In this document: positions 683 to 7,699 of the stretch, piece by piece | How the letters are laid out: every line of letters begins with the position of its first letter | How positions within the stretch are numbered: position 1 is the stretch's first letter | Source of the DNA: a virus | DNA: 20,210 nt | IMG/VR virus record: IMGVR_UViG_3300037459_000055 | Span: 1-20,210 of that record | Reading direction: 5' to 3' (one strand) | The notes under the pieces: generated by a model | Told to the model about the DNA's origin: nothing | Databases searched by the model: none | The model's input: the letters and a program-made list of their open reading frames with translations, nothing else | Program-made: the position numbers and the translations under genes

Positions 683-786
683 AGAGAGGGTGAGGATTTA
701 AACCTCACTCGAACATGGAGGAACCCCACAGTTCGTACCACATTCTTTCAGACGCCAAACCCTATCACCTGGAATTTGACCCTCTC
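683..786 (-). tRNA. tRNA-like element 1 (oversized, abnormal lower half)
   Basis: On the minus strand a perfect 7-bp acceptor pairing joins GAGAGGG (790 side, 780-786) and CCCTCTC (684-690). The T arm is good: TGAGG, loop TTTAAAT, CCTCA. No CCA is encoded. The two acceptor halves are about 103 nt apart, longer than a normal class II tRNA. The middle contains a hairpin CAAA..TCC/GGG..TTTG where the D arm should be. A second hairpin is anchored by GAAC/GTTC. I could not find a convincing anticodon arm: candidate loops have either poor stems or no U33. It could be a tRNA with an insertion, a decayed tRNA or a deliberate tRNA mimic. Confidence 0.4.
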
Positions 787-1138: not shown

Positions 1139-1240
1139 TAGAGGGGCTAGGACTCGAACCTAGAGATCATCGCTTTGGATGTGACCGCCTCCCGAAGATC
1201 CAACGTAGTCTGTGCAGCAGAATCGCGTTGGCCCCCCTCG
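1139..1240 (-). tRNA. tRNA-like element 2, possibly tRNA-Trp (CCA) with D-region insertion
   Basis: The 3' two thirds read like a tRNA on the minus strand. An anticodon loop ATCCAAA (U33, anticodon CCA, A37) sits on a GTCAC/GCGAT stem with one A-C mismatch. A 5-nt variable loop, a perfect T arm CTAGG-TTCGAGT-CCTAG and an acceptor half CCCCTCT plus A73 follow. The pairing 5' acceptor half (GAGGGG) lies about 25 nt further upstream than it should. The extra sequence forms its own hairpin, CCAACG/CGTTGG with inner TCTG/CAGA. A D stem GCC/GGC is possible around this insertion. CCA is not encoded. Total length is about 101 nt. Confidence 0.5.
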
Positions 1241-1331
1241 GGCACCCTCGTCCAACAAGCGTTTCCTTTCTTTAGACTTCCACCTTTCGACAGGATATTA
1301 ACTCCCGTCTAATCTCTCATAATACACCCCC

Positions 1332-1532
1332 TTACCCTTTTCCAGAACGCTGCTCTGTTTGAATCTGTCTACATTCATCCAGAGTACGTTCGAGAAATTC
1401 TACTAAAGCATCTGTTGTGGCAAAGAAAGTTAAGTCAGGCTTTCCATTCACCCATACTTGAACTTGATTCCCCTGTGCTGAGAAGAATTTCATTGGTGTA
1501 AACTCTCCAACAGCATAAGCTTTAAGCTTCAT
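1332..1532 (-). CDS. Small hypothetical protein, 66 aa
   Basis: This frame has 66 codons and starts MKLKAYAVGEFTPMKFF. Its ATG overlaps the stop of the upstream 186-aa gene by one base (TAATG), which suggests translational coupling since no strong Shine-Dalgarno is present. The middle (QVQVWVNGKPDLTFFATTDALVEFLERTLDECRQIQ) looks like two beta strands followed by an amphipathic helix. There is no membrane segment, and the family is not recognised. It is the last gene before tRNA-like element 2. Confidence 0.7.
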   Translation of the reverse strand: MKLKAYAVGEFTPMKFFSAQGNQVQVWVNGKPDLTFFATTDALVEFLERTLDECRQIQTEQRSGKG

Positions 1533-2905: not shown

Positions 2906-2910
2906 AGTTC

Positions 2911-3050
2911 CCGTCCAAGTTTCGAGGCTTGGTTCTTTCGAGGAATACCGGCTTACAAAAAGCTGGGGTCTTGGTCTTTCCGAACCACGGACTTCGGACT
3001 TTTTGCTCCAGCGTTACCCGTCACACTCTGCTGCGACAGACACGGGAAAC
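2911..3050 (-). ncRNA. Non-coding gap with dense hairpins; structured RNA candidate
   Basis: This stretch has no convincing ORF on the operon strand but is packed with inverted repeats. CCAAG (2915-2919) pairs with CTTGG (2928-2932). CAAAAAG (2956-2962) pairs with CTTTTTG (2999-3005). Inside that, TCCGAA (2979-2984) pairs with TTCGGA (2993-2998). CCCGT (3017-3021) pairs with ACGGG (3042-3046), enclosing TCTG/CAGA. The strand cannot be proven, because hairpins exist on both; the minus strand is assumed from the operon. It could be a processed RNA, an mRNA-stability element or an attenuator. Confidence 0.4.
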
Positions 3051-3372: not shown

Positions 3373-3505
3373 GATTTCTTTTCCTTTAATTATCCCTAGA
3401 GGTAGGACCAGCCTCTCAACAGTCCACTTACCTATGCACAGGATGTTACGTCTTTTAATTAGACACGCTTCACCGACAGGAAAAGCTGTAACTCCTTCTA
3501 GGGTT
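3373..3505 (-). other. Gap with open frame but no standard start
   Basis: The region between the helicase stop and the 42-aa gene contains no ATG-started ORF on the operon strand. The frame of the 42-aa gene runs open right through it (reading ...TLEGVTAFPVGEACLIKRR...), back into the end of the helicase gene. An AAGGAG is present around 3490 but has no ATG, GTG or TTG at proper spacing. It could be a 5' extension of the microprotein using a rare start, a decayed gene, or a leader. Confidence 0.35.
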
Positions 3506-5737
3506 TTAATTTGTCTGATACATTTCTTCCTTGATCTTTTTAATCAGATCCATAGCTAGCGATCCAGAAACGTCGCGGGAAAGTTCTATACCTTCCACGG
3601 TAGCTTCGATTATGTCAAACTTCTGATCCAATAGTTCTTGCATCCAATGTTCGATCTTTACATCGCATAACATATAGAATGCGTCAATCGGGTGCGGGTT
3701 ACTCATTCTGTAATGTGCTCTACCCTCACCTTGTTTATGTGCTTCGGGACTCCACCATTGATCGTTAAAGATAACCCAATAACAATATTCTATGTTGTGA
3801 GTTTCTTTCGCGGCTTCTGTTGTCACCACGTATTTAATCTTTGGATCTTCCCGTGTTGCTTCAAATAATGTATCTCTTTCTTCCGGCGTCATGGATACAA
3901 AATCGTCGTCAGTTTTAATCACAGTACAAACTGCTTCGTGACCTAAAGCTTGCGCGATTCCATAAGCCGATCCAAGGAATTGAGAAAAGATCAAGACTTT
4001 CTTGTCTCCCTCAGATTCTTCGATAAGTTCCTGTGCAAGTTCTACCGTGTACGGAATTTTATCTGCCGCACATATCTGCTTTAATCTCAGGATCTCTGTT
4101 AGAATGTGCATCACAGAAGAACCTTCTCCACCATGCCCGCGCGGATCGAAAACCGCAAGCTTCTGGTAGAATCCTTGCAATACTTCTTCATACTTTACCA
4201 TCGCAGAATCAGACATGGGAGAAATTCTTGTGATTCTATTCACATCATCCATATCTTTATCTACGTCGCCCCGTCGCCGCCTAATAAATCTGGGCCGGAG
4301 CATTTCGTGTAGCTTCTCTACGTTATCAGGAATCCTACCATCTATCGTGTAGGTATTTATGAAATCCTGATGGCTAGCGAAAGTCAAAGGATCTATGAGA
4401 TTCAACAACGGCCAAAATTCTCCAGTCCTATTAATAACCGGGGAAGCTGTTGCCGGAATCACATAAGGTATTCCGATTAACTTTCTGTGAGCTTTGGAAC
4501 GGTGCGTATCAAGATTTCTAATCTGGTGTGCTTCATCCAGAAGTAGAACCTTAATACCTAAAACAGTGAACATATTTGTCCAGTTGTAATTCTTTTCTGC
4601 TTCTTTGTCACCGTTATCGGATTTTTCATACGTCCCCATCATATCGTGAGAGATAATAATGTAGGGCGCACCTTGCATGATTTTACCGATTGCATCATGC
4701 TTCTTTCCGTTTGTATTCACACAGACAACCGCATCTTCTCCGGTTAGATTCTTGATCTCCCGAATCCAGTTTGGAATACTTCCAGCTTTGATAGAGCAAA
4801 CTATCTGAGCTTTCGGATCTTCCATCCTAATGATTTCAGAATACGCAATCATCTGACAGGTTTTTCCTAACCCTGTATCGTCTGCTAGAATATCTCTGCC
4901 TCCACTCACCAACATAAATTCTACTCCTACCCTTTGGAAAGGTAGAAGATATTCGTGGAAGGGAAGCTCTTTCTGCAATTTCTTAGACCAGACCATTCGA
5001 TCTAGTTTCAAAATGCGTGGATCTTGTGAATCTTCTTTTCCTGCAATTTCATCCAGCTTTGCACGATCCTCAATTTGTTTAAGGATCAGAGTCCTTGCAG
5101 TTTCAGAATAAACCACACCTTCAGTTTCTTCTAATGCCGGGAAAATTCTCCAACCTTCGGCCAGAGGAATAATCCAGCTTTCTGCATAATCCCATTCCGA
5201 TCCGGGAATCTCTCTAAATCCTGTGCTCCACGGACTAGAGTTCGGACCCTTCTTTGCCTCAAAACACAGAGACAGTTTAACTGTTTTGACATCTACATAC
5301 CAAGCCGGAGCCGTTAGATACCAGTCCAAATCTTCTTCTACACCCGATGCCCAAGATATAGAAACGGACGGTAAAGCTTCCAACTTAGTTTTGCAATCTT
5401 CCCAAGCTTTTATGGGAATCAAATTTCTACCGGGAGCTTCTTCACCCCTAGCTTGATATTCCCATTTGTCAACATATCCCCGATAACCTCTACCGGGAGT
5501 ATCTTTCCAAACTTCCAAAAGATCGGGTCGAGACAGAGATTCACAAACGAGCATACCGCCTTGCCTCGCAGTTACTACAATCTCAATCTCTTTCTTGAGT
5601 TGTTCTTCATACTCTATCAGAGCTTTTGACTCTGCATCAGCAATCTGAACTTCTCGTTTCTTTTCCGCGAGACTTGCTAACTGTTCTCGCAGAGCTTTTT
5701 CTTGCGCTTCTAAAGCAAGAATTTCGGTTTCGCTCAT
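3506..5737 (-). CDS. SNF2-type (SF2) DNA helicase/translocase, 743 aa
   Basis: This is a complete superfamily 2 motor of the SNF2 group. Residues 1-60 form a coiled coil rich in Glu, Lys and Ala. Residues 60-230 are a unique N-terminal domain. The first RecA lobe has LPFQRVGVEFM (Q-motif-like), Walker A DDTGLGKT at 286-293, DEAH at 401-404 and ATAS at 429-432. The second lobe has VLIFSQF near 581 and a motif VI variant GEGRAHYR near 670, where SNF2 enzymes usually have GRAHR. It should use ATP to move on double-stranded DNA, probably in phage replication, recombination or remodelling; such proteins are common in phage early operons. The start is fixed by the conserved AAGGAACCCCAC block. No nuclease domain is seen. 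Confidence 0.92.
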   Translation of the reverse strand: MSETEILALEAQEKALREQLASLAEKKREVQIADAESKALIEYEEQLKKEIEIVVTARQGGMLVCESLSRPDLLEVWKDTPGRGYRGYVDKWEYQARGEEAPGRNLIPIKAWEDCKTKLEALPSVSISWASGVEEDLDWYLTAPAWYVDVKTVKLSLCFEAKKGPNSSPWSTGFREIPGSEWDYAESWIIPLAEGWRIFPALEETEGVVYSETARTLILKQIEDRAKLDEIAGKEDSQDPRILKLDRMVWSKKLQKELPFHEYLLPFQRVGVEFMLVSGGRDILADDTGLGKTCQMIAYSEIIRMEDPKAQIVCSIKAGSIPNWIREIKNLTGEDAVVCVNTNGKKHDAIGKIMQGAPYIIISHDMMGTYEKSDNGDKEAEKNYNWTNMFTVLGIKVLLLDEAHQIRNLDTHRSKAHRKLIGIPYVIPATASPVINRTGEFWPLLNLIDPLTFASHQDFINTYTIDGRIPDNVEKLHEMLRPRFIRRRRGDVDKDMDDVNRITRISPMSDSAMVKYEEVLQGFYQKLAVFDPRGHGGEGSSVMHILTEILRLKQICAADKIPYTVELAQELIEESEGDKKVLIFSQFLGSAYGIAQALGHEAVCTVIKTDDDFVSMTPEERDTLFEATREDPKIKYVVTTEAAKETHNIEYCYWVIFNDQWWSPEAHKQGEGRAHYRMSNPHPIDAFYMLCDVKIEHWMQELLDQKFDIIEATVEGIELSRDVSGSLAMDLIKKIKEEMYQTN

Positions 5738-5790
5738 GTGGGGTTCCTTTGGATAAATCTCCTAGTGAAATGAAACTTCTCTGAAATACA

Positions 5791-5859
5791 TAAGCCGGGA
5801 AGGAATCGAACCTCCCTACAAACGTCCACCACGGATGTAAACCGTTCGGCTACCTCTGG
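5791..5859 (-). tRNA. tRNA-like element 3 (T arm and D arm present, middle too short)
   Basis: The minus strand shows a good T arm (GGAGG-TTCGATT-CCTTC) followed by CCGGCTTA. It also shows a typical D-arm start, TAGCCGAACGGTTTA, as in class II tRNAs. The expected 5' acceptor half (CCAGAGG) does not pair with CCGGCTT, and too little sequence lies between D and T arms for an anticodon arm plus variable arm. Alternatively AGCCG pairs with CGGCT and a hairpin ACGG-TTTACAT-CCGT presents a Val-like UAC loop in a D-armless form. It may be a decayed tRNA or a minimal tRNA mimic. Confidence 0.4.
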
Positions 5860-5881
5860 GGGGATCAATCTATTTTCCTTT

Positions 5882-6346: not shown

Positions 6347-6785
6347 TTTGCGTTTCCTCTGTGGGAAGGAAGTTTTTTACTAGACAGTTAAAATAACCCA
6401 TTTTCCCCATTTCCGCTAGGGGGGTCTAAGTCCTTTGATACCAACGACTTACGGGATCGGGTGCAGAAATGCCTCCCCTTACCTTACACGCAAGTTGTTG
6501 TGCCGCAACGAGTTACAGCGTCGAGCCTCCACCGTTTCAGAATATTTACCGTAAAACCCCATATTTCACCATTTATCACATTTAGTCCAGATGGTAGTTT
6601 TGGCTCCCCACCTGCATATCGGTGTGGGTGGTTCTATATATTTTTTTATTTATATACTATAATGCCACACTTCACGACCATGCTTGGATATTTGTCTGGT
6701 AGGGGTCATTTATACCACATGGGTTGCATGGGATTCATGGACTTACCGTAAAATACCGTAAAGCCCGGTCCTGCATCTTTCGTCG

Positions 6786-7607: not shown

Positions 7608-7625
7608 CCTAGCTTGAAAATTTCT

Positions 7626-7699
7626 GGATCGGTCTTTCAGATTCTATCTTCCCAATCTCAAAACGAGATAGAATCCGAAGGGCCGATCTGGATTTTTTT
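7626..7699 (+). terminator. Strong intrinsic terminator
   Basis: A long hairpin is followed by seven T. GATCGG (7627-7632) pairs with CCGATC (7683-7688), CTTTC (7634-7638) with GAAGG (7677-7681), and GATTCTATCT (7640-7649) with AGATAGAATC (7666-7675), leaving a 16-nt loop. The T tract is 7693-7699. It ends transcription of the 7122-7607 gene and would keep that transcript from running into the late genes. Confidence 0.85.

Follow-up and report, generated by a model that had tools for sequence, protein, structure and literature searches.

Previously described tRNA-like RNAs

The closest known counterpart of the element described here (element B) is RNAC of phage T4, also called species 1 RNA, which is present in Tequatrovirus and related Straboviridae and is said to have been sequenced in early T4 work. 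The RNAC fold (L102:909-1047, minus strand) comprises an acceptor, a long arm, a hairpin, a T arm CCGGG-UUCGAAU-CCCGG and the second acceptor strand, with a z value of -4.57. With the T4 fold imposed on four relatives of RNAC, pairing was obtained in 171 of 187 cells, and 34 two-sided changes relative to T4 were counted; RNAC matches were found in 710 of 50,697 phage records. In addition, the UUGACG sequence of the RNAC long arm is perfectly complementary to CGUCAA in the second hairpin loop. Both are kept in Kosakonia phage 305, in which the remaining arm differs, and a kissing contact between them is possible.

A tRNA-like domain with a T arm also occurs in tmRNA, tRNA-Sec and the bacterial Y RNA (YrlA), the latter being represented in Rfam. 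RNAC has long been a lone unexplained oddity. One report presents RNAC and RNAD as small RNAs from the T4 tRNA region whose role is unknown (PMC3014915), and another as late RNAs confirmed by Northern blotting, their function being unknown (PMC9697503). The pseudo-tRNA tRNAOther of Bacillus cereus is a further tRNA-like gene that does not decode, and it affects the cell; it differs from element B in being chromosomal and tied to a genomic island (PMC3399842).

Identification of element B and its relatives

The analyzed DNA (the window, meaning the whole stretch of 20,210 bases) is a virus record containing terminase, portal and helicase genes. Its minus strand carries a perfect T arm, CUAGG-UUCGAGU-CCUAG, at positions 1163-1147, followed by CCCCUCU-A. 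Two canonical 5-bp T arms are present in the window versus 0.05 expected in random sequence with the same dinucleotide make-up, the second perfect one being located at 5815 on the minus strand. The combination of a T arm having a TTCRA loop with a 7-bp acceptor occurs once versus 0.06 expected. The signal of element B is real; a tRNA-Trp with an insertion, which had been proposed from the sequence of the locus, is not what it represents.

A search for relatives using the terminase revealed L008 (83% identity), which corresponds to a 50,496-base contig designated G001, and L009. At the DNA level, G001 is 75% identical to the window over window positions 1140-1333. Further contigs were found using patterns derived from the conserved loops and stems of element B. 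The first pattern search yielded four stretches (three true and one dropped), the second yielded five, all of them true, and the third yielded nine, of which seven were true and two had no model match. As a result, seven distinct orthologs and one paralog were collected, all in contigs of uncultured tailed viruses from metagenomes. They are listed below.

Window 1139-1250, minus strand: ortholog
L021:2335-2447: ortholog in G001
L029:6100-6214: ortholog in G003
L031:7934-8046: ortholog in G004
L081:2725-2842: ortholog, the same element as in L082
L084:7738-7853: ortholog
L085:9061-9177: ortholog
L021:4611-4701, minus strand: paralog B2 in G001, shorter and with other loops (43.5 bits with model R1, 66.6 bits with model R2)

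The copy in L082 was left out of the count, its element being the same as that of L081. Pairwise identity among the orthologs was 76-94%. Covariance model R1, built from two sequences only (those of the window and G003), found the remaining orthologs with scores of at least 89 bits (E values of about 1e-16 or lower) and detected the paralog with an E value of 3e-6; model R2 was built with the paralog included. Four pattern matches were rejected. L083, the only match in the genome_contigs set, falls within the ORF of a gene unrelated to the element; L025 matched neither the element B query nor R2; L086 and L087 showed no match with R1.

Cellular copies of element B were not detected in 296 Actinomycetota genomes at a threshold of 1e-5, a weak result, since the host may belong to another phylum. 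Among the best matches listed for named phages, none extended beyond the T-arm region, and a non-exhaustive search of the PMC open subset found no description of this RNA.

Structure of element B

According to the comparison of the seven orthologs, the element occupies positions 1139-1250 on the minus strand and consists of the following parts (window coordinates).

1139-1250, minus strand: whole tRNA-like RNA element B (R1 and R2 covariance models, seven orthologs and one paralog)
1245-1249, minus strand: acceptor 5' strand GAGGG, partner 1145-1141 (5/5 pairs in 8/8 sequences; one pair is GC in five and AU in three)
1236-1242, minus strand: P2 5' strand CCCGAGG, partner 1197-1191 (two-sided change in 3/7 pairs, 98% of cells paired)
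1232-1235, minus strand: GGGG run linking P2 to H1, left unpaired by the model (present in seven orthologs, absent from the paralog)
1227-1231, minus strand: H1 stem 5' strand CCAAC, partner 1204-1200 (two-sided change in 4/7 model pairs, 100% paired)
1207-1226, minus strand: H1 apical loop GCGAUUCUGCUGCACAGACU (core UCUGCUGCA common to 5/7 orthologs)
1200-1206, minus strand: H1 stem 3' strand (covariation as for the H1 5' strand)
1191-1197, minus strand: P2 3' strand CUUCGGG (covariation alignment)
1187-1190, minus strand: AGGC linker (AGGC in 7/7 orthologs, AGGA in the paralog)
1182-1186, minus strand: H2 stem 5' strand GGUCA, partner 1169-1165 (two-sided change in 5/5 pairs)
1170-1181, minus strand: H2 loop CAUCCAAAGCGA, containing the previously suggested anticodon (identical in 4/7 orthologs, one-nucleotide variants in three)
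1165-1169, minus strand: H2 stem 3' strand UGAUC (covariation alignment)
1147-1163, minus strand: T arm CUAGG-UUCGAGU-CCUAG (two-sided change in 2/5 pairs; TTCRA loop in 8/8 sequences)
1141-1145, minus strand: acceptor 3' strand CCCUC (sequence and covariation), with U72 at 1140 and discriminator A at 1139

Thus, from 5' to 3', the arms follow in the order acceptor GAGRG (5 bp), U-G, P2, GGGG, H1, AGGC, H2, T arm and acceptor. In the family, P2 has 6-7 bp; H1 can reach 7 bp, and its apical loop measures 20-24 nt among the orthologs. In the window sequence, the H1 stem gains one additional G-C pair (1226 with 1205). A different version of the H1 loop, with GUUCUUGCGAUUC, is found in L081 and L084, and GCGAUUC, occurring in both versions, is common to six of the seven orthologs. 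H2 has 5 bp, all covarying, and its loop comprises 12-13 nt in the seven orthologs. Position N1 is unpaired with U72 in 7/8 sequences, and U7 with C66 in 8/8. The discriminator is A in six of the eight sequences and U in two, and CCA is not encoded.

In the alignment of the eight sequences (A11), 99.5% of 222 cells pair, and two-sided changes are seen in 15 of 29 pairs (34 cells). None of 500 shuffles of this alignment reached any of five measures, and sliding the partners reduced pairing to about 55% or less. In P2, one cell is unpaired, and the paralog aligns poorly there. Since alignments A10 and A11 had been fitted to the structure, a structure-free MAFFT alignment of the seven orthologs was analyzed in RNAalifold as an independent check, and the same helices were obtained. 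The folding energy of the window sequence alone is ordinary, with a z value of -0.25 in the final frame (84 of 200 shuffles as good) and unremarkable values between 0.01 and 0.28 in earlier frames. The proof of the fold is comparative and does not come from single-sequence energy. No kissing of the H1 and H2 loops was seen by eye. Taken together, element B is best explained as a tailed-virus gene for a noncoding RNA that folds as a four-arm cloverleaf like that of T4 RNAC, with H2 and its conserved loop standing where a tRNA has its anticodon arm.

The sequence-only reading of the locus placed a tRNA-like gene at 1139-1240. Its tRNA-likeness, as well as the T arm and the acceptor 3' strand, both on the minus strand, agree with the present model, but its coordinates fall short of the 1139-1250 given by the orthologs. 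The G-run near 1236 that it took for the acceptor 5' strand lies about 10 nt too far in; the true strand is GAGGG at 1249-1245, because the G5-C68 pair becomes A5-U68 in three of the eight sequences. The separate hairpin noticed in the D region does exist, but as a conserved arm of all eight sequences rather than as an abnormal insertion displacing the acceptor. The comparison with relatives, one of the suggested checks, thus did not bear out a tRNA-Trp carrying a removable insertion.

Comparison of element B with tRNAs

ARAGORN found no tRNA in the window, with or without introns, and with default settings called none of the eight elements a tRNA. Relaxed ARAGORN searches reported tRNA-Trp for two of the eight (on a 3' fragment), tRNA-Cys for one and nothing for five. 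The Rfam tRNA model RF00005 did not report element B at E values up to 10, and the best Rfam matches of the element were sub-threshold, namely, mascRNA (14.2 bits, cut-off 42.5) and tRNA-Sec (13.8 bits, cut-off 47). At the element in the loci of four relatives, Rfam gave no match, the only hit being one unrelated weak match. As for other tRNA-like RNAs, ARAGORN (option -m) found no tmRNA in the window, where Rfam detected only a T-arm fragment of it at another site, element C (7.4 bits), and there was no Rfam match at element B in the comparison with YrlA. Both tRNA software and Rfam thus miss genes like this one.

The T arm with the TTCRANY loop is present in 8/8 sequences; the other structural hallmarks of a tRNA are lacking. 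Instead of a 7-bp acceptor with a 1-72 pair, there is a 5-bp core, and the D arm with a GG loop is replaced by the composite P2+H1 arm. The 7-nt anticodon loop of the sequence-only reading forms only part of the conserved loop of 12-13 nt on the 5-bp covarying H2 stem. Its assignment to Trp(CCA) also fails, since the U33-CCA-A-A frame (AUCCAAA) occurs in only four of the seven orthologs; of the other three, one has gained a C (L029), one is without the U (L084) and one has CCCAA (L085). This sequence is absent from the paralog as well.

It might nevertheless be supposed that element B is a real but highly deviant decoding tRNA-Trp (CCA) in which the D-region arm is enlarged or an intron is present, given its canonical T arm, AUCCAAA in 4/7 orthologs and the relaxed Trp calls on a 3' fragment in 2/8 sequences. 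Indeed, it shares with bacterial tRNA-Trp the T arm, the acceptor 3' strand and a CCA triplet in a loop, but differs in the lack of a D arm or a consistent anticodon frame and in a short, mismatched acceptor. The 7-nt U33-CCA frame is broken in 3/7 orthologs within a loop of 12-13 nt, there is no D loop, the acceptor has only 5 bp with mismatches at N1-U72 (7/8) and U7-C66 (8/8), and the relaxed calls disagree (Cys in 1/8, none in 5/8). When segments of element B were deleted, ARAGORN reported tRNAs in 74 of 4046 cases, 39 of them labelled Trp; this is equalled by controls with a shuffled middle part, of which 94% of 150 yielded a "tRNA" and 39% yielded at least 74. We consider a decoding tRNA-Trp very improbable, and the intron model was rejected because it is matched by the shuffle control and the insert is kept in 8/8 sequences.

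Two other intron models were discarded. An archaeal tRNA intron, suggested by the similarity of the portal to a virus assigned to Methanomicrobiales, was unsupported after the relatives had been found; a group I intron, considered after a CAGACUA string had been noticed, gave no Rfam match.

Element B could also represent an attP integration site or a decayed tRNA, that is, a viral copy of the 3' half of a host tRNA, and at first sight it is indeed tRNA-like only in the T arm and 3' acceptor. The exact 22-mer, however, was found in none of the genome contigs and none of the viral contigs. In addition, compensatory covariation is seen in the T arm and acceptor, and conservation extends to the remaining arms; this contradicts such a reading because decay would not produce that pattern. 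Its probability appears close to nil.

Comparison of element B with RNAC of T4

Element B and RNAC have the same order of arms, including a long imperfect arm where a tRNA has its D arm, a separate hairpin and a canonical T arm; both are encoded by phages and are not called tRNA by ARAGORN. The statement that insertions in the D region are not normal in phages needs qualification accordingly, RNAC having the same topology. At the same time, the two RNAs show no sequence homology, and their loops differ. With filters switched off, R2 scored RNAC at 13.2 bits, below tRNA-Ser of T4 (19.6 bits), so that a common origin with element B has no support at the sequence level. Another difference is that RNAC sits in a tRNA cluster, whereas ARAGORN detected no tRNA in the window or in those contigs that were scanned whole (G001, G003, G004, G022 and G024). 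The existence of a second, unrelated family with the RNAC topology in phages without ordinary tRNA genes suggests that tRNA mimicry is a recurring strategy.

Gene environment of element B

Copies of element B lie between genes located on one strand. A small winged-helix-like gene ends immediately upstream of the element in L031 and L081 (its TrmB/MarR-type matches are weak and below cut-offs), and a similar C-terminus is found upstream in L084. In the window, a gene of this kind is located on the downstream side, at 791-1012; in L029 it follows the element at a distance of about 350 bases. The next gene is HTH/excisionase-like in L031 and L081, as well as in L084 judging by its first codons, and different in L029, L085, the window and G001.

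In all seven orthologs, no more than a few dozen bases separate the end of the element from a purine-rich ribosome-binding site belonging to the next gene, and in the window the palindrome CCUCUAUAGAGG overlaps this site. Such an arrangement would fit a cis-acting mRNA element, namely, an intercistronic-leader cloverleaf controlling translation of the next gene, in which the acceptor CCYCUC would pair either with GAGRG or with the ribosome-binding site just downstream. The latter pairing is weak evidence because any CCUCU run complements such sites, and compact phage genomes put every element near the next gene. Moreover, the RNA is retained in lineages that have different genes downstream of it, and this favours action in trans. 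Control in cis thus seems unlikely, although it is less improbable than a decoding tRNA. As regards a trans target in the same genome, no loop-complementary sites of at least 11 nt were found besides the element itself, either for the H1 loop (window and the G001 pieces L020, L032 and L033) or for the H2 loop (window and L020).

Possible role of element B

On the basis of the comparative data, we regard element B with reasonable, if incomplete, confidence as a non-decoding, tRNA-like RNA that stands alone, is probably processed in the manner of a tRNA and acts in trans via its two conserved loops. The RNA would be transcribed together with the neighbouring genes. Host tRNA-processing enzymes, recognizing the acceptor and T arm, could then excise and protect it, and the H1 and H2 loops would carry out its work in trans; the N1-U72 and U7-C66 mismatches, unusual for tRNA-processing substrates, count against this. 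These conserved loops offer direct handles on element B. It may be speculated, with a distinctly minority chance of being correct, that the RNA occupies or misleads a host protein handling tRNA, thus serving as a tRNA decoy.

A broader and rather tentative proposal is that phages repeatedly evolve "pseudo-cloverleaf" RNAs borrowing tRNA processing and shape to engage a host tRNA-handling factor, such as a defence nuclease that cuts tRNAs. The conserved loop code would then be specific to each family. Candidate members are element B, B2 and T4 RNAC, and perhaps elements A and C of the window and an element in L055.

Other elements of the window and related contigs

Element A (window 683-786, minus strand; L021:1793-1875, minus strand) is a second tRNA-like stretch with an acceptor and a T arm. 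Its T loop is TTTAAAT in the window and the canonical TTCAAAT in G001, and the inner hairpin GAACUGUGGGGUUC is common to both. Element A folds better than shuffles (z -2.67), and R2 matched its G001 copy with an E value of about 1. Element C (window 5790-5867, minus strand) has a perfect T arm, GGAGG-UUCGAUU-CCUUC, with the D-loop-like sequence GCCGAACGG upstream; no matching 5' acceptor was found, and the DNA comparison of the window with G001 gave no match there. In the terminase relative L055, the stretch 5010-5092 (minus strand) contains a T arm and a 7-bp acceptor, is not called by ARAGORN and has an E value of 0.028 with R2.

Several other noncoding features were observed. Window positions 2908-2944 and L021:7436-7472 share 37 bases with 97% identity in different gene neighbourhoods, in a region rich in hairpins. 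The hairpin GGUAAGUGGAC-UGUUGAGAGGCUG-GUCCUACC (window 3394-3432, minus strand) is kept in G001, where visual inspection showed compensating changes, and its region in the window folds better than shuffles (z -2.84). A conserved noncoding block at 6411-6659, lying between divergent gene sets, is 72% identical to G001 and contains repeats of AACGACTTAC; it is perhaps a replication origin. A very strong hairpin followed by a T run (7622-7693, z -7.6) is probably a terminator, and its Rfam match to mir-232 (30.8 bits, cut-off 67) is most likely due to chance. Finally, the ribosome-binding-site string AAGGAGCCCCAC or a close variant recurs before many minus-strand genes in the left arm of the window, for example, near 2095, 2300, 2630, 2830, 3240 and 5745.
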